Shown piece by piece: positions 2,651 through 17,177 of a DNA stretch of 22,195 bases. Both the position numbers and the translations under genes were made by a program. This DNA is from a virus, in the IMG/VR virus record IMGVR_UViG_3300034117_000075, positions 1 to 22,195 of that record. One strand, given 5' to 3'. The notes beneath the pieces are model-generated. The model searched no databases and was not told the DNA's origin. It saw only the letters and a list, made by a program, of their open reading frames with translations. Numbering within the stretch: the stretch's first letter is position 1; every line of letters starts with the position of its first letter.

Positions 2651-3159
2651 TAAGATTATTTGATATACAGAATGGACAAGTAGTTCCTAGTGAACATTGT
2701 TACACCCTAAATTCTTTAAAAAGAATTATGGATGAGTATGGTGAAGAAGCTGTAAAGGTGTATGCATATCTGTTTTATATGACATGTCCTAACCCAGATC
2801 TTAATCCGTTTTTTGATGTACCAGAGCAAGATAAGGAAGAACTTATTCTAGCAGAGGTGGATGGTGATTTCTCAGGAGAGGATGAATCTATAAGAGGTGC
2901 ACTTAAAGTGTGCCAGAAAATGTATGAGACTCCTACGTATAGAGCATATCAGGGTATCAAGATTGCATTAGATAACATGGCAACGTTTATGGCTACAGAA
3001 AAACCTACGTCAGGACGTGACGGTTCTGCTACAGCACTATTACGTATTGCTGAAAGATTTGATTCTGTAAGACAAAGTTTTAAAGGTGTGTATAGAGACT
3101 TACAAGAAGAGCAACAGTCTTCTGTAAGAGGTGGCCAGAGATTGGCATATGATCAGTAG
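2647..3159 (+). CDS. Conserved phage protein of unknown function, last gene of the first cluster
   Basis: The 170-residue protein is predicted to be mainly helical. The first 45 residues include a helix SLKRIMDEYGEEAVKVYAYL, followed by an acidic centre (EVDGDFSGEDESI) and a long C-terminal helical part (AYQGIKIALDNMATF, ALLRIAERFDSVRQSF). It ends in a TAG stop seven bases before the tRNA-like element. Its place ahead of the terminase and its helical, oligomer-like look would fit a small terminase subunit, which is otherwise not recognised here. There is no clear helix-turn-helix, so this is only a guess and the product stays hypothetical. Confidence 0.55.
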   Translation: MIRLFDIQNGQVVPSEHCYTLNSLKRIMDEYGEEAVKVYAYLFYMTCPNPDLNPFFDVPEQDKEELILAEVDGDFSGEDESIRGALKVCQKMYETPTYRAYQGIKIALDNMATFMATEKPTSGRDGSATALLRIAERFDSVRQSFKGVYRDLQEEQQSSVRGGQRLAYDQ

Positions 3160-3165
3160 TAAAAT

Positions 3166-3335
3166 TGTAGAGTGACGAAATTGGGTTGTCTCTGTTATGA
3201 CCCTGGCAAACGTACCCACCTGTCTCGTGGGCGGTGATGCAGAAATAGATTGATAATATGGGGTAGACCACCAGCTTGCAAGCGTTGTGTTATCAATTGA
3301 ATCTCACCTTGGTGGTTCGAGTCCACCCTCTACAG
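3166..3335 (+). ncRNA. tRNA-like structured RNA (possibly an interrupted tRNA)
   Basis: This lies in the 196-base gap between genes. The 3' end is tRNA-like: GGTGG-TTCGAGT-CCACC (3311-3327) is a perfect 5-bp T-arm with a 7-base loop, immediately followed by CTCTACA (3328-3334). CTCTACA is the exact complement of TGTAGAG at 3166-3172, giving a 7-bp acceptor-like stem. Directly after the 5' strand, TGACGAAATTGG resembles the D-arm of leucine tRNAs, with GG in the loop and ACG/TGT stem pairing (3175-3177/3187-3189). About 120 bases separate the arms and hold other hairpins: CCCAC/GTGGG (3215-3231) and ATTGATAA/TTATCAAT (3249-3256/3290-3297). I could not draw a normal anticodon arm, so it may be an intron-bearing tRNA, a decayed tRNA or a tRNA mimic. 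Confidence 0.55.
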
Positions 3336-3342
3336 CTAATTT

Positions 3343-3355
3343 AAAACCAAACAAA
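3343..3355 (+). promoter_or_regulatory. A-rich translation leader (AAAACCAAACA)
   Basis: AAAACCAAACA lies two bases before ATG 3356. The same motif precedes the genes at 9839 and 12960, and a close variant precedes 17201. No Shine-Dalgarno sequence is present, so this A-rich leader probably marks the ribosome-loading site, as is usual in Bacteroidota. It also fixes the start of the downstream gene: the longer frame from 3287 would translate the tRNA-like T-arm. Confidence 0.6.
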
Positions 3356-4063
3356 ATGATAAAAAAACTATTAAGTATTTTTAAAAAGAAAGACAAGTTT
3401 GAAGCTATAAGAGTATCTGATGGATTAGATGATAACTTTTTATTTGATTTTAAAAACTATGCTTCTGCTTATAGAGGAGGTAACACCGGCAACACTTATA
3501 TAACAATGAGTTCAGTAGCAGAAGGTGCTACTTTACCTGAAAGTAATAAAATTGCTATTAAACCTATTGATGTATTAGATCAGTTAGAAACTGTCCCTAC
3601 ACCATGGACTCTTGCTAATATAGATGATAAAATTGCTGTGTTAAAAATTAAAGAAGAATTAATTACACAGTATTATTCTAAAAGAGAAGTAAGTGCTCTT
3701 ATAGAAAGACTAGAAAATAGAAAAAAGTGGGGAAGCTGTCAAAACTTTTTTAACGGATTTCAGAATACTACAGATGAGAAGATTGGTATATTGTTAGAGA
3801 AGTATGATTTACAAATGAATACTTCTGATTTATTTGTACCAGAGTTTCCAGATGATGCTATAGCAGTAATGCAAAAGTATACAGAACAGATGATGAAACT
3901 GTGTAAGAAAAAACCTGTATTCTATGTGATTGCTGAACCTGATAAATTCCGTAAAGCATATGAGAAAAGAGATCCTATTTTATTAGTACAAAGTCCATTT
4001 GGATTTTACTGGCAGATTTTAGGAGCATGGGATAAAGAAATGCTATTATTATCTGAACTATAA
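3356..4063 (+). CDS. Conserved phage protein of unknown function, upstream of terminase
   Basis: I start this gene at ATG 3356 (235 residues), because the motif AAAACCAAACA sits just before it and upstream bases belong to the RNA element. The N-terminus is basic (MIKKLLSIFKKKDKFEA). A short flexible Gly/Asn stretch (RGGNTGNTY) follows, then a helical middle (IDDKIAVLKIKEELITQYY, EVSALIERLENRKKW), and an alpha/beta C-terminus (KKPVFYVIAEPDKFRK, DPILLVQSPFGFYWQILG). I recognise it as a type often found just upstream of terminase in Bacteroidota phages, without known function. Arginine is mostly AGA here, unlike the capsid gene, which suggests modest expression. Confidence 0.65.
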   Translation: MIKKLLSIFKKKDKFEAIRVSDGLDDNFLFDFKNYASAYRGGNTGNTYITMSSVAEGATLPESNKIAIKPIDVLDQLETVPTPWTLANIDDKIAVLKIKEELITQYYSKREVSALIERLENRKKWGSCQNFFNGFQNTTDEKIGILLEKYDLQMNTSDLFVPEFPDDAIAVMQKYTEQMMKLCKKKPVFYVIAEPDKFRKAYEKRDPILLVQSPFGFYWQILGAWDKEMLLLSEL

Positions 4064-4479: not shown

Positions 4480-6687
4480 TTGGAAGCTAACATATTTATA
4501 GAAGTACCTACTTACGATGTTGATCATTGGACCGTCTCCACTTTTTATAGTAGAGAAGAGTTTAGAGATTTTTTACTATCTATATTCAAAGAACCAGGTG
4601 AGTATAACTTTGATGAGACTAGTTTAATCTTTAATGCAGAAGCTCGTAAGTTTCAAAAGCAAGGGTATTACTGTGCTGCTCCAGTAAAAAGTAAAGACTT
4701 TATAACATATTGGGACGACCAAAAGAACAAGTGTCGTAAAGGAGTTATTATAAAAAGTGAAAACGGTACATGGTATATAAGCAGAGACTACTACATGTGG
4801 TTAAACTTTTTACCTATTTACGATAAAGAAGAAAAGAGGTTTGACTTTGCTAAGGTGAGAGATGCACAATATCACATGGCTTTATATGAGCATCTTGCTG
4901 AACTGCATTGGCGGCACGCTATCATTCTAAAGAAACGTCAGATAGCATCTTCTTATTTTCACATGGCTAAGTTAATTAACCAATGGGTATTTGAAGAAGG
5001 ATCTATTCTTAAAATTGGAGCTAGTCTTAAAGACTACATTAATGAGAAAGGATCATGGAAGTTTCTTAATGAATATCGTAACTTCTTAAATGAACACACT
5101 GCATGGTATAGACCGGCAGAACCTGATAAGGTGGGGGCGTGGAACCAGCAGATTAAAGTGAGAGTAAATAATCGTGATACATATAGAGGATTAAAAAGTA
5201 CAATTAACTTATACTCTTTTGAGAAAGATCCTACACATGGTGTCGGTGGACCTGTAACATACTTCTTTCACGAGGAAGCAGGTATCGCACCTAAGATGAA
5301 TGACACTTATGGATTCATGAAACCAGCCCTTAAGTCTGGTCATATTATTACAGGTCAGTTTATTGCAGCAGGATCAGTGGGTGATCTCGATCAGTGTGAA
5401 CCCATGAAAGAGTATGTATACCATCCAGAAGAAAACGGGTTCTATGGAATAGAATCTAATCTTGTAGATAAAGATGGTACAACAGGTATTACAGGGTTGT
5501 TTATACCTGAACAATGGTCAATGCCTCCTTATATTGATCAGTATGGTAACTCTTTAGTAAAAGAAGCCTTAGAAGCCCTAGATAAAGAGTTTGAGAAGAT
5601 GAAGAAGGATCTTGATCCAGGAGCTTACCAGCTTACGATTTCACAGCATCCTAGGACCCTAGAAGAGGCTTTTGCTACACGTAAGGTGAGTGTGTTCCCT
5701 CCGCATCTTGTGGCTAAACAAATGCAGCGTATTCAAGATAAAGAATATCCTGTAGAATACTTAGAACTTTCTAGAAACGCAGAAGGTAAAATCATAGACA
5801 AACCGTCTAGGAAGATTCCTATTATGGAGTTTCCTATATCTAAAAAGACAGAAGATAAAGAAGGTGTCATCTGTATTTACGAAAGACCTTGTAAAGATCC
5901 TCAGTTTGGCACATACTATGCTTCTGTGGATCCAGTAGGTGAAGGTAAAACTACTACATCGGAATCCCTATGTTCTATATACATATACAAGAATCCTGTA
6001 GAAGTAATAAAAGACTCTGGTGGAGGAGTGGTAGAAAGTAGTATTGAACGGGATGGTATAGTGGCATCTTGGTGTGGTCGTTTTGACGATCTTACTAAAA
6101 CCCATGAGCGTTTAGAAATACTTATAGAGTGGTACAACGCCTGGACAATAGTGGAGAATAACGTAGCTTTGTTTATACAATACATGATTTCTAAACGTAA
6201 GCAACGTTACTTAGTACCTAAAGACATGATCTTATTCTTAAAAGACATTGGTGCCAACCGTAACGTATTCCAAGAATATGGCTGGAAGAACGTAGGTACG
6301 CTTTTTAAGGGTAACATCCTATCTTACGGTATTGAGTATACAAAAGAAGAGCTAGATCATGAGACAAAAGAAAACGGGGATATTGTAAAAACCATATACG
6401 GTATTGAAAGAATCCCTGACATTATGCTTTTACGAGAGATGCAAGCTTACAGAGATGGACTAAACGTGGATAGATTGGTAGCCTTTTGTGCTCTTATAGC
6501 CTTTGCAAAGGTGCAACAATCTAACCGTGGCTTCTCTAAACGTGTAGAAGTTACAAAAGAAAACTTGGATAACTCCCAGAAATTTAGTAAATTAAATTGG
6601 AGCCCCTTTAGACATCTGGGTAATTCTAGGGGTAGTGACGGTACAAATATGAGACCGCCACGTAGTCCTTTTAAAAATATGAGATAA
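4480..6687 (+). CDS. terL: Terminase large subunit (packaging ATPase/nuclease)
   Basis: At 735 residues this is a full two-domain terminase. The ATPase domain has a deviant Walker A, LKKRQIASS (about 150-158, the RQ-x-x-x-S form common in phage terminases), and a Walker B with catalytic acid, YFFHEEA (261-267). A coupling-type segment GQFIAAGS follows at 292-299. The RNase H-like nuclease domain has SVDPVGEG (D484), WTIVENN (E559) and NVDRLVAF (D664), fitting the usual three acidic residues. The protein cuts concatemeric DNA and drives it through the portal into the prohead. The start is a TTG directly after the upstream stop; no in-frame ATG occurs for about 100 residues, and the sequence is well formed from the TTG onward. 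Confidence 0.92.
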   Translation: MEANIFIEVPTYDVDHWTVSTFYSREEFRDFLLSIFKEPGEYNFDETSLIFNAEARKFQKQGYYCAAPVKSKDFITYWDDQKNKCRKGVIIKSENGTWYISRDYYMWLNFLPIYDKEEKRFDFAKVRDAQYHMALYEHLAELHWRHAIILKKRQIASSYFHMAKLINQWVFEEGSILKIGASLKDYINEKGSWKFLNEYRNFLNEHTAWYRPAEPDKVGAWNQQIKVRVNNRDTYRGLKSTINLYSFEKDPTHGVGGPVTYFFHEEAGIAPKMNDTYGFMKPALKSGHIITGQFIAAGSVGDLDQCEPMKEYVYHPEENGFYGIESNLVDKDGTTGITGLFIPEQWSMPPYIDQYGNSLVKEALEALDKEFEKMKKDLDPGAYQLTISQHPRTLEEAFATRKVSVFPPHLVAKQMQRIQDKEYPVEYLELSRNAEGKIIDKPSRKIPIMEFPISKKTEDKEGVICIYERPCKDPQFGTYYASVDPVGEGKTTTSESLCSIYIYKNPVEVIKDSGGGVVESSIERDGIVASWCGRFDDLTKTHERLEILIEWYNAWTIVENNVALFIQYMISKRKQRYLVPKDMILFLKDIGANRNVFQEYGWKNVGTLFKGNILSYGIEYTKEELDHETKENGDIVKTIYGIERIPDIMLLREMQAYRDGLNVDRLVAFCALIAFAKVQQSNRGFSKRVEVTKENLDNSQKFSKLNWSPFRHLGNSRGSDGTNMRPPRSPFKNMR

Positions 6688-6690
6688 AAT

Positions 6691-6969
6691 ATGGAAACTC
6701 TAGACTTACATGCCCAAAAAGTAACAGTTCTTTCTAGGTTGATTAAAGAAAGCTCCCTCACCCTAGAGGAAGCTTTGCTGCTTTTAAAGGAAGAAGAAAA
6801 ACCCACATTAACTTTTGGAACTACCAATGGAAGTAGTAGTTTTCCTGTTTATCCGTCATCGGGTATATGGAGTACTTCCACTGCACCATATATGCCATCA
6901 TTTATATCAACTACTGGTGGAACTATTACTAATACAATTGCTGATGATTCAGCAAACCTAAATAACTAA
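6691..6969 (+). CDS. Small protein between terminase and portal
   Basis: The 92-residue product has a helical, leucine-rich N-terminus (residues 1-36: LHAQKVTVLSRLIKESSLTL, then EEALLLLKEEEK). The C-terminus is low-complexity and rich in Ser, Thr and Asn (TTGGTITNTIADDSANLNN). It begins three bases after the terminase stop and ends five bases before the portal start. I do not recognise a family. A minor virion or assembly protein is possible from position alone. Confidence 0.55.
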   Translation: METLDLHAQKVTVLSRLIKESSLTLEEALLLLKEEEKPTLTFGTTNGSSSFPVYPSSGIWSTSTAPYMPSFISTTGGTITNTIADDSANLNN

Positions 6970-6974
6970 ATATC

Positions 6975-9728
6975 ATGCAGATATATTCAGCAATGGATCT
7001 GAAGGCCGGGAAAAAGGCGGAGTATAACAAGATGGGTACTCTTACCCAGCCTATTCAATTTTTACCCGAGAAAGAGAAAGATGATGAGTGGAGAGCCTGG
7101 AATCTAGACTGGCTTGAGTGGCAAGGTATGAAGCAGCTTAGACGCAATGCTCGTAGGCTTATGAAGAACTACAAGCTTGCTAAGGGTATTATTGACAAAA
7201 CAGATTATATCGTTGAAGAAGATAACGAAATGGCTGATCTTATTGATCAGTTAACTAAAGAAGATCAATCTGCATTAGAGCTTAAGTTCTATCCTATTAT
7301 CCCTAACGTTGTAAACGTATTATGTAATGAGTTTTCTAAAAGAAGCTCACGTATTATGTTTAAGGCTGTAGATGATATTTCTTACAATGAGCTTTTAGAA
7401 GAGAAGCGTAAAATGCTTGAGGATGTCCTTTTACAGGATGCTCAGCAAAAGATGATGATGGAGATTATGAATCAGGGCTTAGATCTTGAAGATGAAGAAG
7501 TTCAGAAACAAGTTCAAGAGCAGACTTCTCCAGATAACTTAAAGAAACTTCCTGAGATTGAAAGCTTTTTCCGTAAAGATTACAGATCTATGATTGAAGA
7601 GTGGGCTACCCACCAGATGTCAGTAGATGAAGAAAGGTTTAAACTTCAAGAGTTAGAAGAACGTGCATTTCGCGATATGTTAATTACAGATCGTGAGTTC
7701 TGGCATTTTAACATGATGGAAGATGACTATGAGTTAGAGTTGTGGAATCCACTTCTTACATTCTACCATAAATCTCCAGATGTACGTTATATCTCTCAGG
7801 GTAACTGGGTAGGTAAAATGGATATGATGTCTGTATCAGACGTTATTGATAAGTTTGGTTGGATGATGAACCAGGAACAAATGGAAGCTTTAGAAGCTAT
7901 CTATCCTGTAAGATCTGCCGGCTATGCTGTACAAGGATACCAAAATGACGGTACATACTATGATCCTACAAGAAGTCATGAGTGGAATACTCAGATGCCA
8001 TCTCTTGCATACAGACAATTTACATCTGTATACGATACAAAGTTTGGTACAGGTGACATTGTAGAATGGATCTTATCAGATTCAGAAGATACTATTGACT
8101 TTGGTAAGAGTCACTTACTACGTGTATCTCAGATTTATTGGAAGTCTCAACGTAAAGTGGGGCACTTAACTAAGATTACAGAAGAAGGAGAAATCTTACA
8201 AGACATTGTAACTGAATCATTTAAAGTGTCTGATAAGCCTCAGTATAACACTGCATTGTATAAACAAAAGACTAAAGATAACTTAATCTTTGGTGAACAT
8301 ATAGATTGGATTTGGATTAACGAGACTTGGGGTGGTATTAAGATTGGACCTAACCGTCCGGCATTCTGGGGACATAATAACCCAGGTGGCATTAACCCAA
8401 TCTACTTAGGACTTAATGGTGGTAAACCAGGACGTCTTCCTTTCCAATTCAAAGGGGATGCTACACTTTATGGGTGTAAACTTCCAGTGGAAGGTTGTGT
8501 ATTTGGAGATAGAAATACTAGGAGTACTTCATTGGTTGATCTAATGAAGCCCTACCAAATAGGCTATAATATTGTGAATAACCAGATCGCAGACATTTTA
8601 GTAGATGAGCTCGGCACGGTGATCATGCTAGACCAGAACTCTTTGCCACGTCACTCTATGGGAGAAGACTGGGGTAAAAATAATCTGGCTAAAGCCTATG
8701 TGGCTATGAAGAACTTCCAGATGTTACCGCTTGATACAAGCATAACTAACACTGAGAATGCTCTTAACTTCCAACATTATCAGGTGTTAAACCTAGAACA
8801 AACTAACCGTTTGTTATCTCGTATTCAATTAGCAGGTCACTTTAAGAACCAAGCTTTTGAAACTATTGGTCTTAACCCACAACGTATGGGTCAGGCTATT
8901 GCTCAACAACAAACTGCCACTGGTGTAGAACAAGCTATGAACGCTTCTTATGCACAGACAGAGCAGTATTTTATTCAGCACTCAGATAACTTAATGCCTC
9001 GCGTACATCAGCTTAGAACAGATCTTGCTCAGTATTATCATTCTAAAAAGCCTAGTGTACGTCTTCAATATATTACATCTAAGGATGAAAAAGTTCATTT
9101 TGAAATGAACGGTACAGAGCTTCTTATGAGAGATTTAAATATCTTCTGTACAACAAAGACTAATGCTCGTTCTGTAATGGAGCAACTTAAACAATTGGCT
9201 ATCAATAACAATACTACTGGTGCATCTATCTACGATCTTGGTAATGTTATCAAGTCTGAGTCTATTGCTGAACTTACAGGTGTTCTTAAGAATGCTGAAG
9301 AAAAAGTACAAGCTCAGAAAGAAGCTGAAATGCAACAACAGCAGCAGATGCAACAAGAAATGCTTGAGTCTCAAGAACGTCAGAAACAAATGGATCTACA
9401 GTTTAGAACCGAACAAGCTGATCTGGATAGACAAACTCAGCTTACTGTAGCTGAGATTAGAGCAGCTGGATATGGTGCAGGTGTAGATATTAACCAGAAC
9501 GAACAGTCTGATTATCAAGATGCTTTAGAAAAGATTCGTGGTGAGCAACGCTATCAAGATCAGATGAATCTTAAGCGTGAGTCTGAGATGAATAAAAAAC
9601 TACAGACAGATCAGAAGCTTAGCATAGATCGTGAAAAGTTACAAACACAGAAACAAATAGCTGATAAACAACTTCAGATTGCTAAAGAAAATAAGAATAA
9701 GTACGATTCTGGGAAGAAAGCTAAATAA
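6975..9728 (+). CDS. Portal protein
   Basis: This 917-residue protein follows terminase and precedes a scaffold candidate and the capsid gene, the canonical portal position. The N-terminal 400 residues are alpha/beta. Residues around 480-560 (GGINPIYLGLNGGKPGRLPF; LVDLMKPYQIGYNIVNNQIA) and the segment GQAIAQQQTATGVEQAMNAS resemble the stem and clip region of large portals in Bacteroidota and crAss-like phages. The last 160 residues are a Gln/Glu/Lys-rich coiled coil (EMQQQQQMQQEMLESQ; KQIADKQLQIAKENKNK), probably forming the long barrel or an internal extension. It would form the dodecameric ring at one vertex, docking terminase and later the tail. The family call is from pattern and context, not a search. 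Confidence 0.82.
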   Translation: MQIYSAMDLKAGKKAEYNKMGTLTQPIQFLPEKEKDDEWRAWNLDWLEWQGMKQLRRNARRLMKNYKLAKGIIDKTDYIVEEDNEMADLIDQLTKEDQSALELKFYPIIPNVVNVLCNEFSKRSSRIMFKAVDDISYNELLEEKRKMLEDVLLQDAQQKMMMEIMNQGLDLEDEEVQKQVQEQTSPDNLKKLPEIESFFRKDYRSMIEEWATHQMSVDEERFKLQELEERAFRDMLITDREFWHFNMMEDDYELELWNPLLTFYHKSPDVRYISQGNWVGKMDMMSVSDVIDKFGWMMNQEQMEALEAIYPVRSAGYAVQGYQNDGTYYDPTRSHEWNTQMPSLAYRQFTSVYDTKFGTGDIVEWILSDSEDTIDFGKSHLLRVSQIYWKSQRKVGHLTKITEEGEILQDIVTESFKVSDKPQYNTALYKQKTKDNLIFGEHIDWIWINETWGGIKIGPNRPAFWGHNNPGGINPIYLGLNGGKPGRLPFQFKGDATLYGCKLPVEGCVFGDRNTRSTSLVDLMKPYQIGYNIVNNQIADILVDELGTVIMLDQNSLPRHSMGEDWGKNNLAKAYVAMKNFQMLPLDTSITNTENALNFQHYQVLNLEQTNRLLSRIQLAGHFKNQAFETIGLNPQRMGQAIAQQQTATGVEQAMNASYAQTEQYFIQHSDNLMPRVHQLRTDLAQYYHSKKPSVRLQYITSKDEKVHFEMNGTELLMRDLNIFCTTKTNARSVMEQLKQLAINNNTTGASIYDLGNVIKSESIAELTGVLKNAEEKVQAQKEAEMQQQQQMQQEMLESQERQKQMDLQFRTEQADLDRQTQLTVAEIRAAGYGAGVDINQNEQSDYQDALEKIRGEQRYQDQMNLKRESEMNKKLQTDQKLSIDREKLQTQKQIADKQLQIAKENKNKYDSGKKAK

Positions 9729-11142: not shown

Positions 11143-12762
11143 ATGGCAACTCCAGTTTTGAACAATGGTATATTTCTACGAGATACCAGCTATGCAACTA
11201 GCTCACACGTAGACTCCTACCACCTTTCAAACCTTCTTAAGAGTGCAGAACCTACTGATTTAGGTCCTGTAGATTTATGGGCAATGGCTCAAAAGGTAGA
11301 AATGCCTTTGTACCAGATGTCTAGCTTTGGAGGAAAGAACGTTATCTCTGTAGATAACGCACGTGGTGAGTACAAATGGCAGATCCCAGTAACTCAGGAT
11401 CTACCTTACATTACAGAAGATGTAGAATCCGCTAATGCTACAAAAGGCATTGACGGACAGAGTTTCAAAATTAAAGTAAACAAGCGTTCTTTCGGACATG
11501 GTGATATCATCACTTATGACAAATACAACGGTGTTGAAATGTACATCACTGCTGACGATATCATCCCAGCTGGTGACGGTTTCATTTACACAGTTCAGCT
11601 TGTAAACAATGACAACGCTAAGTTCTTGGATAACAAGTACTTAAAAGTTGGTACTAAGGTGTTCCGTAAAGGTTCTGCTCGTGGTGAATACGGTGAGCGT
11701 TTCTCTGATATCGGTAACATCAGTGCAGGTTTCCGTGAATTCTACAACTATGTAGGTGGTGCTGAAGCTCACGTTCACTATTCTGTTAGCTCTCGTGCTG
11801 ACTTAATGATGAAAGGTGGTTTAAAAGCTGATGGTACAGTTCCTGTAGTTGAGCTTTGGAGAAACTTTGACAAGAGCGTAGATCCTTCTATTTCTAACTT
11901 AGAAGACATGGCTTCTAAAATGGGTAAAGATTATGTAAAGAAAGCTTACCAATCTGGTCAGTTAACTCGTACATTCTTAACTACTATGGAAGCAGCTCAT
12001 TTGAGTAAGATTGCTAACGACATCGAAACTTACCTTATGTGGGGTCAAGGTGGTAAAGTTAAGCAAGATGGTCCAGATGATATTCGTCTATCAGTTGGTC
12101 TTTGGAAGCAGTTAGATAACTCTTACAAGCGTATTTACAACAAAGGTAGTTTCAACTTGGATCTATTCAAGTCTGAGATCTTCAACTTCTTCAATGGTAA
12201 AGTTGAGTTCCAAGGACCAGATCCTAAGCGTAGCTTAGTTGTACAAACAGGTCTTGGTGGTATGAAACTTGTTAATGAAGCTATTAAGCGTGAGGCTATT
12301 AACTCTGGCTTAGTAATCAATGCTTCTGAAGTTGGTGCTATCACTGGCAAAGGTATGGATCTAAACTTTGGTTTTGCTTACACTCAATACGTTATTCCGT
12401 TCTTGGCTAACGTTAAGTTTGTATTGAACCCAGCGTTTGATAACATCCACACTAATGACATTGAGAACCCAATCATTGATGGTTTCCCATTAAGTTCTTA
12501 TAATTTCATCATCTTTGATATCACTGAGAACACTAACGACAACATCTTCTTGTTGAAGTTATCTTGGGATAATCAATTGAAGTGGTTCTATCAAAACGGT
12601 ACTATGGATTACATGGGTCGTACTCAAGGCTTCCAGTCTTCTGGAAACTTCAACGGCTACCGTGTGTTCATGACTCAAACAATGCCTGCTATCTGGGTTA
12701 AAGATCCTACGAAAGTATTGAAGATTGTTATGAGAAACCCTGTAACTGGTGGATCATTCTAA
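11143..12762 (+). CDS. Major capsid protein
   Basis: The 539-residue protein follows portal and scaffold and has the features of a large HK97-fold capsid protein. An N-terminal arm is followed by a beta-rich region (DIITYDKYNGVEMYITADDI), a long helix region near 250-300 (SISNLEDMASKMGKDYVKKA), and a conserved-looking C-terminal half (FGFAYTQYVIPFLANVKFVL, NPAFDNIHTND). The family is inferred from context and texture, not an alignment. Arginine is almost always CGT, and Asn AAC is frequent, unlike flanking genes, a sign of strong translational selection for an abundant protein. It carries the special leader shared with the gene at 15141, and its transcript ends in a structured spacer. Confidence 0.85.
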   Translation: MATPVLNNGIFLRDTSYATSSHVDSYHLSNLLKSAEPTDLGPVDLWAMAQKVEMPLYQMSSFGGKNVISVDNARGEYKWQIPVTQDLPYITEDVESANATKGIDGQSFKIKVNKRSFGHGDIITYDKYNGVEMYITADDIIPAGDGFIYTVQLVNNDNAKFLDNKYLKVGTKVFRKGSARGEYGERFSDIGNISAGFREFYNYVGGAEAHVHYSVSSRADLMMKGGLKADGTVPVVELWRNFDKSVDPSISNLEDMASKMGKDYVKKAYQSGQLTRTFLTTMEAAHLSKIANDIETYLMWGQGGKVKQDGPDDIRLSVGLWKQLDNSYKRIYNKGSFNLDLFKSEIFNFFNGKVEFQGPDPKRSLVVQTGLGGMKLVNEAIKREAINSGLVINASEVGAITGKGMDLNFGFAYTQYVIPFLANVKFVLNPAFDNIHTNDIENPIIDGFPLSSYNFIIFDITENTNDNIFLLKLSWDNQLKWFYQNGTMDYMGRTQGFQSSGNFNGYRVFMTQTMPAIWVKDPTKVLKIVMRNPVTGGSF

Positions 12763-12768
12763 AAAATA

Positions 12769-12809
12769 GTATCTGAGGCAGGGGGTTAAAATCCCCTGCC
12801 AAATGATAC
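12769..12809 (+). other. Long GC-rich hairpin just after the capsid gene
   Basis: GGCAGGGG (12777-12784) and CCCCTGCC (12793-12800) form a perfect 8-bp stem with an 8-base loop. An outer stem GTATC/GATAC (12769-12773/12805-12809) extends it. It begins seven bases after the capsid stop. There is no T run, so it is more likely a 3' stability or processing hairpin than an intrinsic terminator. Confidence 0.6.
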
Positions 12810-12820
12810 ACTCACACCAC

Positions 12821-12900
12821 CCTGCGGATAGTATCCTCAGGCCACCTATTGTATGCGTACCATGAATGATCACATGGGGAGCTCGCAACTCCTAATAGGT
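12821..12900 (+). ncRNA. Structured RNA with a three-way junction in the capsid 3' spacer
   Basis: Two folds follow each other. The first is CCTG/CAGG (12821-12824/12838-12841) stacked on GGAT-AGT-ATCC. The second is a perfect 7-bp stem ACCTATT/AATAGGT (12844-12850/12894-12900) enclosing two adjacent hairpins: CCATG/CATGG (12860-12864/12873-12877) and GGAG/CTCC with a 7-base loop CTCGCAA (12878-12892). No coding frame of note overlaps it. It may be a small RNA, a 3' UTR stabiliser or a processing site; I cannot match it to a known family. Confidence 0.5.
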
Positions 12901-12913
12901 TCTAAATATAAAA

Positions 12914-12929
12914 GGTTACATTTGTAACC
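12914..12929 (+). promoter_or_regulatory. Palindrome GGTTAC-ATTT-GTAACC with an embedded -7-like box
   Basis: A perfect 6-bp inverted repeat lies 30 bases before ATG 12960. It contains TACATTTG (12917-12924), an exact match to the Bacteroidota -7 consensus TAnnTTTG, but no TTG is at the expected -33 position. It could be a promoter, an operator or an RNA hairpin. Confidence 0.35.
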
Positions 12930-12939
12930 AGTTATAATA

Positions 12940-12959
12940 AAAACCAAACAAACCAAAAC
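12940..12959 (+). promoter_or_regulatory. A-rich translation leader (AAAACCAAACA, then AACCAAAAC)
   Basis: A third exact AAAACCAAACA copy (12940-12950) is followed by a second similar unit AACCAAAAC, directly before ATG 12960. This marks the start of the connector gene block. Confidence 0.5.
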
Positions 12960-13976
12960 ATGAGTAGTGTAACTATTGTGGAGAAGTATCCACAGAACAA
13001 ACGTTCAAGCATTGCAATCCGTCCATTCTTTGATCCTTTAGTGGATAACATGGGATTACAGAAATACGGATTAAGTCTTTTTGATGGAGCGTTCCACGAG
13101 GAACCAATTGCTTGTTTAGAAATCAACGGTATCAAAAGATACTTAACTGGTCTAAATGAGTTTTCTCCAGACATTAAAGATCTTCCTTTAGAAGAGCAAG
13201 AAGCTAAGATTAAACAAATCCGTGCTGTAGTAGCTCAACTAGAAAAAGAATTAGCTTCCAATGTGATTGATCCAACAGATGATCAGTTTTGGAATAAGGT
13301 TAAACTTCTTAAACCAGATAATAACGACTTCTGGGATAAGATTAAGATTAGATGCGGTAATGAACCTTTGTACTTAGAACCTGATAAAGATCCATATGAT
13401 TTAATCAGATTATACGCTATAGATGCAGGTGGTTTTAGTATTGTTGCAAAGAGTCTTGATGACGCTCGTAGAATGCCAGTACCTCCTAAGTTTTATTTAG
13501 ATAAGCTAGAAGAAACTGCTTCTATACAAACTGAAGTTAAGAAGCTTCGTAACAAAGCTCTTGCAGAACTTCAGAAACTATTTGATAAAAACCAAAACAA
13601 GCTCTTATATGTAGCTAAAGTTTTAGATGCAAATAGTGCTCAATATAAAAAGTCTACACCTAATGACGTTATCTATGACAACATGGATAAATACATTAAC
13701 GGAGACTTGGTAGAAAAAGATAAGCGTAAAACCGCTCAGAGATTTTTAGATGCAGCTAATCTAGATATGGAAACATTAAAGATTAGATCTATTGTAAAAG
13801 ATAGTAACTACTTTAAGTTCATTGCTCCAAAATCAGACGGCTTTATCTATCATATGCAAACAACTACTATGTTAGGTAGAACTCCTTCAGATGTAGTAGA
13901 ATATTTAAAAAATCCTTTGAACGAGGAGATTTTAATAGACTTAACTAAAAAAGTTGAAAAGTACTGGATGCAGTAA
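12960..13976 (+). CDS. Structural protein of the head or neck, function unassigned
   Basis: The 338-residue protein is the first gene after the capsid gene and its structured spacer. The N-terminus (1-70) is alpha/beta (SIAIRPFFDPLVDNMGLQKY). A helical stretch with charged repeats follows (DLPLEEQEAKIKQIRAVVAQ). Two similar short units, DQFWNKVKLLKPDN and NDFWDKIKIRCGN (108-134), stand in tandem. The C-terminal half is helical and lysine-rich, ending KKVEKYWMQ. The type looks familiar from Bacteroidota phage head modules, but I cannot name a function; a capsid accessory, head-completion or internal virion protein would fit. It ends eight bases before the next gene. Confidence 0.58.
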   Translation: MSSVTIVEKYPQNKRSSIAIRPFFDPLVDNMGLQKYGLSLFDGAFHEEPIACLEINGIKRYLTGLNEFSPDIKDLPLEEQEAKIKQIRAVVAQLEKELASNVIDPTDDQFWNKVKLLKPDNNDFWDKIKIRCGNEPLYLEPDKDPYDLIRLYAIDAGGFSIVAKSLDDARRMPVPPKFYLDKLEETASIQTEVKKLRNKALAELQKLFDKNQNKLLYVAKVLDANSAQYKKSTPNDVIYDNMDKYINGDLVEKDKRKTAQRFLDAANLDMETLKIRSIVKDSNYFKFIAPKSDGFIYHMQTTTMLGRTPSDVVEYLKNPLNEEILIDLTKKVEKYWMQ

Positions 13977-13984
13977 AATAGTAT

Positions 13985-14686
13985 ATGAATAACAATCTCT
14001 TACAAATTAAGATAAAACAAAGGCTTAATAAACTAGCTAGCTTTGATTATGACAACATTGAATGTTGGATGATCCAAGAAGCTTTTAATAAAGCTCAGTT
14101 AGAATGGGTACGTAGACGTCTCCATGCTCTTAATCCGTCAAAAGAGGCTGCAGAACAGAGTGTTACAATTGTTGATGATGTACAAGTTCTTTTAACAGAA
14201 GTTCCTTTAGCGGGGACAGTAAAAGATAAGTATATTGAGTCAGCTAACATTCCTGCAAACTTTTTACACTTTGTAAGAGTTAGTGCTAACGCAAAAACTG
14301 ATTGTTGTCCTAAAAGAGCTCTTTCTATATATCAAGCTGAAGAAGCTAACGTTGACATCCTTTTGGCTGACAACTTTAAGTCTCCAAGCTTTGACTGGTC
14401 AGAAACCTTTTGTACAATAGCTGCAGATAAACTAAAGCTGTATACAAACAATCAGTTTGATATTCAAGATATTAAGCTTACATATTATAGACTTCCAAGA
14501 GATGTTCAGTTTATAGGTTGTACAAATATATCTACAGGAGCTACATTTAGAGCAGATCAAACATGTGAACTTAAAGAAGACATATGTGAGATTTTAGCAG
14601 ATGAAGCTGCAGCTATTTTAGCCGGTGATATAGAGTCTATGAATCAGTATCAAAGAGAAGTACAAAACGCTCAAAGAAATAGTTAA
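13985..14686 (+). CDS. Putative head-tail connector (adaptor) protein
   Basis: The 233-residue protein starts with helices (QIKIKQRLNKLASFDYDN, CWMIQEAFNKAQLEWVRRRL), then a beta-rich middle (NFLHFVRVSANAK, DIKLTYYRLPRDVQFIG). It ends with an acidic helix in which DEAAAILAGDIESMNQYQR is prominent. This helix-beta-helix order and the closing helix resemble connector or ring proteins that bind below the portal in podoviruses and crAss-like phages. The assignment rests on shape and position, not a search. It overlaps the next start as TAATG. Confidence 0.5.
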   Translation: MNNNLLQIKIKQRLNKLASFDYDNIECWMIQEAFNKAQLEWVRRRLHALNPSKEAAEQSVTIVDDVQVLLTEVPLAGTVKDKYIESANIPANFLHFVRVSANAKTDCCPKRALSIYQAEEANVDILLADNFKSPSFDWSETFCTIAADKLKLYTNNQFDIQDIKLTYYRLPRDVQFIGCTNISTGATFRADQTCELKEDICEILADEAAAILAGDIESMNQYQREVQNAQRNS

Positions 14687-15099
14687 TGATACAGAAATTA
14701 CAAAGACCTGGACCGATGGGACCTTGTACAGAGACAGCAGCAATGTTGGCTCACGCTCAAGCTCTTACAACAAGTATGCACCAGTTGCATCTTAAAATAA
14801 CTGGACCTGGTTCTTACTCAGCACACAAAGCTCTTAATGAGTTTTATGAGGCAATGCCTGATTTAGTAGATGCTGTAGCTGAACAGTATCAAGGAGCTCG
14901 TGAGAAGCTTCTAGATTTTCCAGTAGTGCCTGCATATAAATGCGGGTCTGTACAGGAAGCAATATCTCACATGAAAGACTTATATAACGAAGTGGTGCAG
15001 TTACAAAAGATTATGACCTTTTCAGAAGTAACAAACCAACTAGATGAGGTGAAGAGTTTGATTTCTGCAACCAAGTATAAGTTAATGTTCTTAAGTTAA
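14686..15099 (+). CDS. Dps/ferritin-like small protein with ferroxidase-centre ligand pattern
   Basis: This 137-residue protein looks like a short four-helix bundle. Residues H35, H47, D62 and E66 have spacings of 12, 15 and 4, exactly those of the Dps ferroxidase ligands (H51, H63, D78, E82 in E. coli Dps). The intervening segment aligns without gaps: G40 and F53 also match, in HLKITGPGSYSAH and FYEAMPDLVDAVAE. Known Dps proteins oxidise and store iron and can coat DNA. The usual Trp after the first His is Leu here, and the protein is slightly shorter than most Dps. It sits by TAATG overlap behind the connector gene, so it may be a virion or assembly protein with a ferritin-like fold; activity is unproven. 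Confidence 0.62.
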   Translation: MIQKLQRPGPMGPCTETAAMLAHAQALTTSMHQLHLKITGPGSYSAHKALNEFYEAMPDLVDAVAEQYQGAREKLLDFPVVPAYKCGSVQEAISHMKDLYNEVVQLQKIMTFSEVTNQLDEVKSLISATKYKLMFLS

Positions 15100-15119
15100 A
15101 TTTTTATTTATTTATTTAT

Positions 15120-15140
15120 AACCCTTTAAATTAAAGCCCT
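15120..15140 (+). promoter_or_regulatory. Leader of the major tail protein gene, matching the capsid leader
   Basis: AACCCTTTAAATTAAAGCCC plus T directly precedes ATG 15141. It matches the capsid leader at 11121-11142 apart from a two-base gap shift and single substitutions, and contains CTTTAA-A-TTAAAG as a perfect inverted repeat. It lies in a 41-base spacer after the preceding stop. Confidence 0.6.
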
Positions 15141-16487
15141 ATGTATTTTCCTAATGCATTCCGCAAGTCATTCTTGCCTGCTAGCACTACGCTTGCTAGC
15201 TCTGGTGGTACTGATGCTTTAACTGCTGGTCAAATTGGTTTCTTTGATGCCAAGACTTTCCAAGTAGTTTCTGCTCAAGCCGCTCCATTTATTATGGCTC
15301 AAGGTAGTTACTTTGCTACTGACAAAATTGGCCCTGTTCACGGTGGTTACAAAGAGTCTGTTAAGTCTAAAGTAATTAACCCTAAGTACATCAGCCGTGT
15401 TATTAAAGTAACTTCTGATGCTGCTAAGAATCAAATCGTTAAAGTAGAAGCTAATGCTTGTGCAGGTCTTGCTTGTGACAGCACTATCCGTCTACGTCTT
15501 GACGTTAAAGGTTCTCCTGCTCTCCGTTTCTTGAACCACCAATTGTACAAAACATTGGATGCTTACACAGGATGCTGTGATGCAAACAAAGCTGCAATTG
15601 ACCACACTGTGGCTCTTTTGAAATGGGCTGATCAGATCAACGAAGCTCCTTTGTTAAAAGATTTCGTACAAGCTAAAGTATGGTTAGAAACTACAGCTTC
15701 TGTAGCTATTGACCCTACTGTAGGTTTAGCAACTATTGCTGTAGCAAATGCTGATGCAGCGTTGTTCCAAGTAGGTGAAAAAGTAGTTCATGCTTCTTTA
15801 GCTCCTAACAGCTTAGTTTTATTAGTTGGTGCTGCTGATTCAGCTAGCTCTGGTAATACAACAATTACCCTTACTCAAAATGCAGTAAGCTCAACTAATG
15901 GTAACGCAGCTATCTTTAGTGCACAAACTACTGCTGGTTACACTCCTGCTACTTCTAGCTTAGGATCTGTAAACTCTCATTTAGACATCGTTGCTGCTTA
16001 TGTAGACACTAAGTTTGGTAACTGTACTTTCACTCCTACTGACAAGTATGATTTAGAGCCTTTGTTTATCTACGCTTCTGTAGTAGACGAGTCTGGTGAG
16101 CCTTGTAAAGTAGAGTGTATTTCTGTATCAGAAACACAAGCTCCTAAGCAAGCTTCAGGTTCAGGTGAAACTGTACTTCGTGAGTTGATCTTAGATGGTC
16201 GTTACTTACAAAACGCATATCCTGATAGTTCTCGTGTAGAGCATTTACGTATGCGTGAGATCGAAGCTGATCCAGCTTTGGCAACTGTTAACCGTAACGG
16301 TTTGTATGATCAAGTATTGATCTTACACAACGTTCCACGTTTTAACAACCCTACTAGTACTTTTGATAATGATCAGTATTTGATCGTAGTTCACGTACCT
16401 GCTGGTACTGCAACAACTACAATCACTAACTTCATTACAGCTAGTGCAAGTGCGGCTGGTAATGCAGTATCTCTAGAGACTGTATAA
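15141..16487 (+). CDS. Abundant structural protein, probably the major tail protein
   Basis: The 448-residue protein has a beta-rich N-terminal domain (MYFPNAFRKSFLPASTTLAS; GQIGFFDAKTFQVVSAQAAP). An Ala/Ser/Thr-rich middle (about 190-275) looks like an exposed insertion, and another structured part follows (ETVLRELILDGRYLQ, VRHFNNPTSTFDND-like). The tail end is Ala/Thr-rich. Its arginines are essentially all CGT or CGC and its leader copies the capsid leader, so it should be among the most abundant virion proteins. After the connectors and before fibre genes, a tail tube or similar major tail protein is the natural reading. No sheath gene is visible here. A second major head protein is the main alternative. 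Confidence 0.55.
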   Translation: MYFPNAFRKSFLPASTTLASSGGTDALTAGQIGFFDAKTFQVVSAQAAPFIMAQGSYFATDKIGPVHGGYKESVKSKVINPKYISRVIKVTSDAAKNQIVKVEANACAGLACDSTIRLRLDVKGSPALRFLNHQLYKTLDAYTGCCDANKAAIDHTVALLKWADQINEAPLLKDFVQAKVWLETTASVAIDPTVGLATIAVANADAALFQVGEKVVHASLAPNSLVLLVGAADSASSGNTTITLTQNAVSSTNGNAAIFSAQTTAGYTPATSSLGSVNSHLDIVAAYVDTKFGNCTFTPTDKYDLEPLFIYASVVDESGEPCKVECISVSETQAPKQASGSGETVLRELILDGRYLQNAYPDSSRVEHLRMREIEADPALATVNRNGLYDQVLILHNVPRFNNPTSTFDNDQYLIVVHVPAGTATTTITNFITASASAAGNAVSLETV

Positions 16488-16511
16488 GGATATTAAGAAT
16501 ATCTAAACATT

Positions 16512-16541
16512 AAGGGAGAGGACACATGTCCCTCCCTTTTT
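16512..16541 (+). terminator. Strong rho-independent terminator
   Basis: AAGGGAG-a-GGAC (16512-16523), loop ACAT, then GTCC-CTCCCTT (16528-16538) form an 11-bp stem with one bulge, followed by a T run to 16541. It lies 24 bases after the major tail protein stop and should end the late structural transcript. Confidence 0.85.
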
Positions 16542-16542
16542 G

Positions 16543-16565
16543 TTTTTTGGACATGTCCCAAAAAA
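16543..16565 (+). other. Second hairpin sharing the ACATGTCC core
   Basis: TTTTTTGG/CCAAAAAA (16543-16550/16558-16565) is an 8-bp stem with loop ACATGTC, one base after the terminator. It repeats the GGAC..ATGTCC core of the preceding hairpin. On either strand it has T-rich flanks, so it may act as a backup or bidirectional terminator. Confidence 0.5.
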
Positions 16566-16628
16566 TTAGTATATTATTATTGAGAACTTGTATTCTCCAA
16601 TCTATATAAATATTTAAAGTTTATCATA

Positions 16629-17177
16629 ATGGCAAGCAAACATCAGCTAAGTTTAGAGCTGCCTGATACCAATAATATCAAGGTATTACGTCTATTTGAT
16701 ACTAGTGCATATGCAGAAAATCTTACAATTGATTGCAGTACACTACGTATTACTGCTCCTGGTTTTAATTTACCGGTAGCTATTGACGTGCTCCCACACT
16801 TTAATATTGTTCTAAACGCATGTAGTTTAGGACTTCAAAGAACCTCTTGTGCAGAGGCTTCTCAACCTATTCCAGATGGTATTTATGTAATTAACTATTC
16901 AGTATCCCCAAATACAAACGTATTTGTTGAATATAATCATTTACGGACAACACAAACAACTAATAAATATTTTAACTTGCTTTCTGATTTAGAGATGTCA
17001 GCCTGTGAACCAGCTGCTGATATAAAAGAAAAGTTAGAAGAACTTAGATTAATTAAAAGTTTTATAGATGCTGCTAAAGCTAAAGTGGAGTATGGACATG
17101 AGCCTGAGGCAGGTATGAACCTTTTGATGTATGCTCAGAAAAAGCTTAATAAGTACGCTACTGAGTGTGCTTGTTAA
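16629..17177 (+). CDS. Tail-associated structural protein of unknown exact role
   Basis: The 182-residue protein has a beta-sandwich-like N-terminal 115 residues (IKVLRLFDTSAYAENLTIDC, LRITAPGFNLPVAIDV, DGIYVINYSVSPNTNVFVEY). A helical C-terminus follows (DIKEKLEELRLIKSFIDAAK, MNLLMYAQKKLNKYATECAC). I recognise this as a recurrent gene at the neck-to-fibre junction of Bacteroidota phages, without a proven function. It follows the strong terminator and a 90-base AT-rich spacer with a GAGAA/TTCTC hairpin (16580-16595), which presumably carries its promoter. The 56-residue Cys-rich gene follows 23 bases downstream. Confidence 0.55.
   Translation: MASKHQLSLELPDTNNIKVLRLFDTSAYAENLTIDCSTLRITAPGFNLPVAIDVLPHFNIVLNACSLGLQRTSCAEASQPIPDGIYVINYSVSPNTNVFVEYNHLRTTQTTNKYFNLLSDLEMSACEPAADIKEKLEELRLIKSFIDAAKAKVEYGHEPEAGMNLLMYAQKKLNKYATECAC

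Follow-up and report, generated by a model that had tools for sequence, protein, structure and literature searches.

A ferritin-like virion protein of the DUF5856/PHROG 858 family is already in print for the Ackermannviridae, in tabulated mass spectrometry (MS) data. ORF78 of the Dickeya phage LIMEstone1 is tabled as an MS-confirmed structural protein (3 peptides, 28.21% coverage) in a study whose MS analysis also detected intracellular enzymes at low coverage (PMC3296691), and its gene lies among other MS-confirmed unknown structural genes. Gp217 of the Salmonella phage Sajous1 gave 10 spectra in CsCl-purified virions, as against 924 for the capsid protein; the authors matched it to ferritin using Phyre2 and proposed ferritin-mediated entry ("ferrojan horse"), with the warning that proteins seen in few spectra could be contaminants, and five Vi01-like phages infected independently of TonB and FeoB (PMC10892097). 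The genes of both proteins are located near a primase gene. Dps genes of Gratiaviridae, Flandersviridae, and Lactobacillus phage, which are also phage-encoded members of the ferritin superfamily, are described in print as oxidative-stress helpers, the Lactobacillus gene lying near replication genes (PMC8008677, PMC6669764). In the virion operon of the phage crAss001, the major capsid protein (MCP) gene gp32 is followed by gp33, the ring genes gp34 and gp35, and gp36, which is the capsid auxiliary protein in the crAss001 atlas and has a domain ending at residue 333 (PMC10172136). Ferritin and Dps are not mentioned in the main text of that atlas.

Here we describe a Dps-like gene in the capsid operon of a crAss-like phage. 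The window (the whole stretch of DNA that was analysed, an IMG/VR record of 22,195 bases) shares ten compared genes at 100% identity with the 129,765-base IMG/VR record L002. Its terminase, portal, and MCP matched PHROG terminase, portal, and head families in a PHROG profile search, and the portal matched those of crAss-like phages, the top-ranked cultured one being Leptolyngbya phage Lbo-JY46 (34%). The gene order (MCP, a 338-aa gene, ring gene, Dps-like gene, and gp36-like gene; Table 1) matches that of crAss001 around the slot between the ring and gp36-like genes, except that crAss001 has a second ring gene (gp35) and no ferritin-like gene annotated at this place. In phi17:2, csAssE-Sib, and Lbo-JY46, too, nothing is annotated between the ring gene and the gene that follows it (the Lbo-JY46 ring gene being assigned by position). 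The ring product matched the csAssE-Sib "ring protein" (30%) and phi17:2 gp064 (27%) in tblastn and crAss001 gp34 in hhalign (P=1.2e-4, probability 54.6), with a weaker match to gp35. Since the 338-aa product matched gp33 only weakly in hhalign (P=0.011, probability 3.9) and not significantly in BLASTP (E 0.11), its name, gp33-like, refers to position only.

The original prediction had placed the Dps-like gene in a virion morphogenesis operon, overlapping the connector gene and preceding the major tail protein gene. The overlap was confirmed as a single base, the ATG of the Dps-like ORF taking the last base of the ring gene stop (TAATG), and the location between the ring gene and a capsid-auxiliary-like gene agrees with membership in the morphogenesis operon. 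The name "major tail protein" was rejected for the downstream gene, whose 448-aa product has the predicted fold of the capsid auxiliary protein: its AlphaFold2 (AF2) model (pLDDT 79) matched 7qof_a, a crAss001 capsid chain of 333 residues, in Foldseek (E=2.4e-9) and in VIA-align (Z 15.6, 298 residues aligned). We infer that this chain is gp36 from its length of 333 residues and the gene order. Sequence comparison alone gave no match for the 448-aa protein (best PHROG E 0.49). By its crAss terminase, portal, and MCP, by the MCP–gp33–ring–auxiliary gene order, and by the auxiliary fold, the window phage is crAss-like. When distinct ring-gene sequences with a slot gene behind them were compared (80 in all), the two genes overlapped by one base in 41 and lay within 10 bases of each other in 79. 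Counts of promoter-like sites (7, shuffle mean 12.3) and terminator-like sites (6, all on the minus strand, shuffle mean 2.2) at positions 12700–16700 were uninformative as to an operon. Elsewhere in the window, positions 278–676 encode a product that by eye resembles an HU/IHF-like DNA-bending protein (crAss001 has one too, Gp42, near its ring genes), and positions 636–965 encode a cysteine-rich 109-aa product with CxxC and CC motifs, directly before a 277-aa gene starting at 962.

Table 1. Positions of the genes, predicted metal ligands, and N-terminal tag in the window
Feature	Position	Strand	Basis or conservation
Terminase large subunit	4480..6687	+	PHROG 6681, 6.7e-66
Portal protein	6975..9728	+	PHROG 6547, 2.1e-89
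Major capsid protein (MCP)	11143..12762	+	PHROG 11589, 5.7e-30
crAss001 gp33-like gene, 338 aa	12960..13976	+	position between MCP and ring, as gp33
Tail-ring (adaptor/connector) protein, crAss001 gp34-like	13985..14686	+	tblastn, hhalign
Dps-like mini-ferritin gene, 137 aa	14686..15099	+	Pfam DUF5856, PHROG 858
Tag MIQKLQRPG, residues 1–9	14686..14712	+	mean pLDDT 50 (residues 1–10); common to some slot ferritins
Codon of H35, predicted metal ligand	14788..14790	+	62/62 distinct clade sequences, 19/19 across families
Codon of H47, predicted metal ligand	14824..14826	+	62/62 clade, 19/19 across families
Codon of D62, predicted metal ligand	14869..14871	+	61/61 clade sequences long enough, 19/19 across families
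Codon of E66, predicted metal ligand	14881..14883	+	61/61 clade sequences long enough, 19/19 across families
Capsid auxiliary protein-like (crAss001 gp36 fold), 448 aa	15141..16487	+	AF2 model, Foldseek, VIA

Predicted fold and metal site of the Dps-like protein

The AF2 model of the Dps-like protein, a monomer model made with 36 relatives, had a pLDDT of 90.5 and a pTM of 0.84. It comprised helices at residues 14–37, 43–72, 89–109, and 113–135 preceded by a low-confidence N terminus, consistent with the four-helix bundle expected of a Dps fold. In a Foldseek search against PDB structures, 49 of the 50 rows listed were Dps-family entries by title, the best E value being 2.6e-3 and none falling below 0.001. 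VIA-align gave Z scores of 16.7 to M. smegmatis Dps2 (126 residues) and about 15 to E. coli Dps, on a scale on which helical bundles can score 13 from their common arrangement alone; because a mini-bacterioferritin scored 15.6, beside Dps at 15–16.7, VIA does not single out Dps. Dps proteins have a short BC helix between helices B and C, whereas the predicted structure has a loop at residues 73–88 with no helix of four or more residues.

The original prediction had recognized a Dps-type ligand set in H35, H47, D62, and E66. Their spacing (12, 15, and 4) is indeed that of H51, H63, D78, and E82 in E. coli K-12 Dps, which we take to be its iron ligands. This part of the claim stands, but it does not extend to the fifth Dps ligand, presumably D67 (or E), which corresponds to position 51 and is N in the window protein; among the 62 distinct clade sequences, the position is N in 40, G in 20, and D in 2, and it is D or E in 6 of 10 relatives outside the crAss-like clade. 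Similarly, an ungapped alignment to E. coli Dps was obtained for the helix A–B segment (12 identities in 54 columns), whereas the longer BLASTP alignment required gaps. A chance match of the four residues was rejected, as the pattern occurred in 33 of 100,000 shuffles of the window protein and in 0 of 1712 other ORFs of at least 100 aa in the fetched loci. The suggested profile searches gave matches to Pfam DUF5856 (PF19174; 1e-17, 65.4 bits against a curated cut-off of 34.6) and PHROG 858 (8.7e-22, 79 bits), and phmmer matched the protein to H. pylori NapA (E=2.7e-6).

Conservation of the ligands was first counted on 46 distinct crAss-like sequences, the window included, from 66 fetched loci (H35 and H47 in 46/46; D62 and E66 in 45/45). 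The count was then widened to 62 sequences, one of which (L058) is cut off before D62 and was excluded from the D62 and E66 counts. In this conservation check, which the original prediction had proposed, all four residues were conserved throughout the clade and in a 19-sequence family set comprising nine crAss-like members and ten from T4-like phages, Kuttervirus (heyday), the jumbo phage Munch, P19250A, and a spring-water phage. This set has no more than six invariant columns, among them H35, H47, D62, and E66. H32 was present in 62/62 clade sequences and in 18/19 across families. Two clade members, L209 (8198–8647) and L215 (minus strand, from 1398), have an H47–D62 gap two residues shorter than in the others. 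The dN/dS ratio was 0.07–0.23 in all but one of 12 pairs, the exception being L043, for which no dS was obtained; dS exceeded 1 in two pairs. As judged from these sequence comparisons, the gene is evolving under purifying selection, and it is kept in relatives whose protein identity to the window is as low as 42%.

Compared with bacterial Dps proteins (E. coli Dps, H. pylori NapA, and M. smegmatis Dps2), the window protein has the common fold (VIA Z up to 16.7) and ligand spacing, but is shorter, has no BC helix in the model, lacks the fifth ligand, and is only 3–19% identical in the VIA rows listed. Together, these computational results make the fold and the metal site nearly certain and provide good support for its assignment as a ferritin-superfamily, Dps-like mini-ferritin with a predicted metal site. 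We file it as DUF5856/PHROG 858 and describe it as "Dps-like" rather than as "a Dps."

The same four ligands are found in T4 rI.-1 and nine other non-crAss relatives of the DUF5856/PHROG 858 family. In T4 and four annotated relatives, however, the DUF5856 gene is not in the capsid operon, where the window gene lies; T4 rI.-1 (L072:820–1206), which has D at the fifth position in addition to the four ligands, overlaps the lysis-inhibition gene rI, and its homologues in the four T4-like phages overlap rI or a putative lysis-inhibition gene. The top-ranked known-phage homologue, from Methylophilaceae phage P19250A (L071:7911–8315), shows a one-base overlap with a holin gene, a second link of the family to lysis genes. 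In many phage records, PHROG 858 carries the label "starvation-inducible transcriptional regulator," a name that apparently misreads Dps; the aligned members look like mini-ferritins. Among the matches listed in literature searches on DUF5856 or rI.-1, the word DUF5856 was absent. LIMEstone1 ORF78 and Sajous1 gp217, which belong to a different phage family, are about 36% identical to residues 32–137 of the window protein in two-sequence comparisons (E ~1e-12). Since their shorter N termini carry no tag of the kind described below, these homologues are a precedent for the family and not for docking.

Slot content and N-terminal tag in crAss-like relatives

We compared the slot between the ring and gp36-like genes across 76 distinct relatives drawn from all scans, after removal of short loci, of loci missing the ring, 338-aa, or 448-aa gene, and of those that duplicated both proteins. 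The slot held a Dps-like gene in 61, a true ferritin gene in 13, both in one, and neither in one; these rows were used instead of the raw locus counts, which include repeated contigs (145 Dps-like, 18 ferritin, 2 both, and 1 none). Since many loci had been fetched through Dps-like or ferritin genes themselves, this pool is biased. In a scan keyed on the neighboring 338-aa gene, there were 252 relatives; 80 loci were retained with repeats unmerged, and 73 of these reach the slot (the other 7 end before it or have no ring match). The 73 slots contained 71 Dps-like genes, one ferritin alone (L151), and one empty slot (L129). L151 encodes a 199-aa ferritin (PF00210, 2.8e-19; PDB ferritin, 1.3e-18), L161, one of the 71, has a Dps-like gene and a ferritin gene in tandem, and L129 has no Dps-like or ferritin copy elsewhere on its 17.6-kb contig. 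A further scan with the L151 ferritin yielded 29 loci, 25 of which have the ferritin gene directly after the ring gene. The slot ferritins retain the residues that we take to be ferritin ligands: E54 in 23/23, E87 in 22/22, H90 in 21/21, and E131, Q164, and E167 in 20/20. Known phages searched with a slot ferritin gave three weak matches, all in unannotated gut records.

A quick tree of the two neighboring proteins from the 76 relatives implied at least 8 changes of slot state, with 6 for the 13 ferritin-only rows (at least 4 forced by strongly supported branches) and 7 for the 61 Dps-like rows (3 forced), the exact numbers being unsure because several branches are long. Among 16 records of 100–131 kb chosen for size, DUF5856 was present in 14, a ferritin above the cut-off in 2, and both in none; since 12 of the 16 had been fetched via such a gene, the new point is that no second one occurs. 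Below the cut-off, three weak ferritin matches in these records coincide with DUF5856 genes. What selection maintains at this place seems to be an iron cage as such and no single gene.

Several loci showed further features around these genes. In L181, a ferritin gene (3088–3612) lies between the portal and capsid genes, and the product of the gene before the ring gene (6442–7239) has a tag-like N terminus, KRIPRPGYF. In L186 (5007–10521), the crAss muzzle gene (PF25731) has a ferritin gene directly downstream, and MK[TK]LK opens the ferritin as well as both proteins encoded after it, which hints at another common N terminus. Runs of small, often lysine-rich genes occur between the 338-aa gene and the ring gene in L154 (7173–9913), L160 (7034–9212), and L161 (7366–10179); they include a conserved 80–84 aa protein, and its L145 copy had matches to PHROG 4689 and to the end regions of larger PHROGs.

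The low-confidence N terminus of the Dps-like protein contains a short tag (Table 1). R-P occurs near the N terminus in 56 of 61 distinct clade Dps-like proteins, mostly inside K-[IL]-x-R-P, with a linker of variable length behind it, and a stretch of this type also opens ferritins, including those of L163 (MQKIARPTIFS), L167, and L151. N termini were scored with a five-position matrix derived from 45 Dps-like N termini against a background of 382, which came from forward-strand ORFs of at least 120 aa only, perhaps not all of them genes. By a motif and rule set after the likeness had been noticed, and from predicted start codons, 10 of 21 ferritin N termini scored above the entire background, seven by a clear margin (7.6 to 17.9) and three only just (6.0 versus 5.9), and the other 11 did not carry the tag. 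Seventeen of the 21 were from the slot, and four (L181, L186, L189, and L191) from elsewhere. When IMG/VR was scanned for DNA encoding MQKIx[RS]Px[IV]F, 10 stretches were obtained: 3 opened ORFs of at most 42 codons, and 7 opened ferritin or Dps-like genes, six of them on already-known contigs and one, L215, new (a Dps-like gene between ring and gp36-like genes).

The Arg and Pro codons of the tag vary, with AGA and CCT dominating, which points to selection on the protein. Alternatively, the shared 5' end of the Dps-like and ferritin genes could stem from recombination; the two tags of L161 have 6 of 16 codons and 8 of 16 residues in common. By eye, the K-[IL]-x-R-P tag was absent from the ten relatives outside the crAss-like clade. 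N-terminal docking of extra head proteins has a precedent in crAss001, since the head-fibre proteins gp21 (residues 1–38) and gp29 (residues 1–58) occupy a hexon pocket to which the capsid protein and gp36 both contribute (PMC10172136).

Possible roles of the slot proteins

Our preferred reading, which we place marginally on the probable side, is that the window encodes, together with its capsid, a mini-ferritin with a ferroxidase site that would be tethered to the virion by its tag. The subunits would assemble into a cage with ferroxidase sites at the subunit interfaces, as in Dps, and the cage would oxidize Fe(II) with peroxide or oxygen and store Fe(III). Ferroxidase activity is likely in view of the four ligands, which rank with the best-conserved features, and of the replacement of the gene by true ferritins. 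The synthesis of the protein would coincide with that of the virion proteins, and the particle would carry the cage docked on one of its components, possibly the capsid, through the flexible N-terminal stretch made up of K-[IL]-x-R-P and the linker. We favor the capsid as a guess because the crAss001 gp21 and gp29 N termini sit in the capsid protein/gp36 pocket and the Dps-like gene adjoins the gp36-like gene. The benefit might be that iron and peroxide are kept off packaged or incoming DNA, or that activity or stored iron is delivered to the next host. In a more specific form, which we put forward tentatively as something short of probable, a transferable N-terminal peptide would fit a capsid pocket beside the gp36-like protein and so dock 12-mer mini-ferritins or 24-mer ferritins on the capsid or within it. 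One virion slot would then take either of the two iron-cage families as cargo, and the particle would bring a ferroxidase and an iron store to the next host. The strongest evidence overall, which the original prediction had no means of seeing, is the interchangeability of the slot ferritins, their partly common tag, and the MS detection of homologues in the virions of other phages.

The main rival to virion carriage is a late cytoplasmic iron-detoxifying protein. In this case, a working mini-ferritin would act in the infected cell and not in the particle, clearing iron and peroxide as the host fails and protecting replicating DNA and assembling virions, and its N terminus would be a DNA-binding tail or have no role. 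E. coli Dps has an N-terminal DNA-binding tail, and the tag contains K and R, as such a tail would. The conservation of the ligand residues in every aligned sequence fits this explanation, published phage Dps genes have been explained in this way (PMC8008677, PMC6669764), and the host dps gene is reported as induced during YerA41 infection (PMC7354516). We nevertheless regard it as a possibility on the doubtful side, as it leaves unexplained the fixed place between the ring and capsid-auxiliary-like genes, the like tag on slot ferritins in part of the clade, and the virion MS of the homologues. Carriage on the virion via the tag would best join the position, the exchange, the tag, and the Ackermannviridae data.

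Two other explanations take the gene further from iron or from the virion. The fold might be reused without iron chemistry in a small structural or regulatory protein, either a capsid–ring adaptor, given that the gene adjoins the ring gene, or a factor in lysis timing as suggested for T4 rI.-1, whose over-expression slightly delays the collapse of lysis inhibition according to a review (PMC6832632). Loss of the fifth ligand in 60 of 62 clade sequences is in line with this idea; however, the four other ligands stayed invariant while most columns of the 19-sequence set vary, and a role without metal is unlikely since exchange at the slot brings in ferritins that keep their own full ligand set, so we consider it improbable. 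The gene might instead be passing cargo (a moron) that arrived in the operon by chance and has no specific virion link. The absence of an annotated gene at this place in Lbo-JY46, phi17:2, and csAssE-Sib, the empty slot of L129, and the ferritin genes located elsewhere, after the portal gene in L181 and beside the muzzle gene in L186, could be read in this manner, although the latter two places are also within virion-gene blocks. Retention of the Dps-like gene under purifying selection in distant relatives, and replacement by ferritin far more often than absence (13 versus 1 of 76, in a pool biased towards both genes), make a chance passenger very improbable.

Among the papers listed in searches on ferritin in crAss-like phages, ferritin and capsids, viral ferritin, and the ferrojan horse, we found no description of the slot in crAss-like phages, of the two gene types that alternate in it, or of their common tag. 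The results further suggest that the PHROG 858 family, with T4 rI.-1 among its members, is mini-ferritin-like and has a conserved metal site. The "ferrojan horse" idea asks whether iron is carried by phage particles and for what purpose. The swap of cage families with the tag often kept offers a direct and cheap test, namely binding of the tag to the capsid or gp36-like protein and iron in the particle. If the preferred reading is true, this would be a natural peptide-based system for loading ferritin onto a virus, and the particle of a crAss-like phage may itself carry an iron cage.
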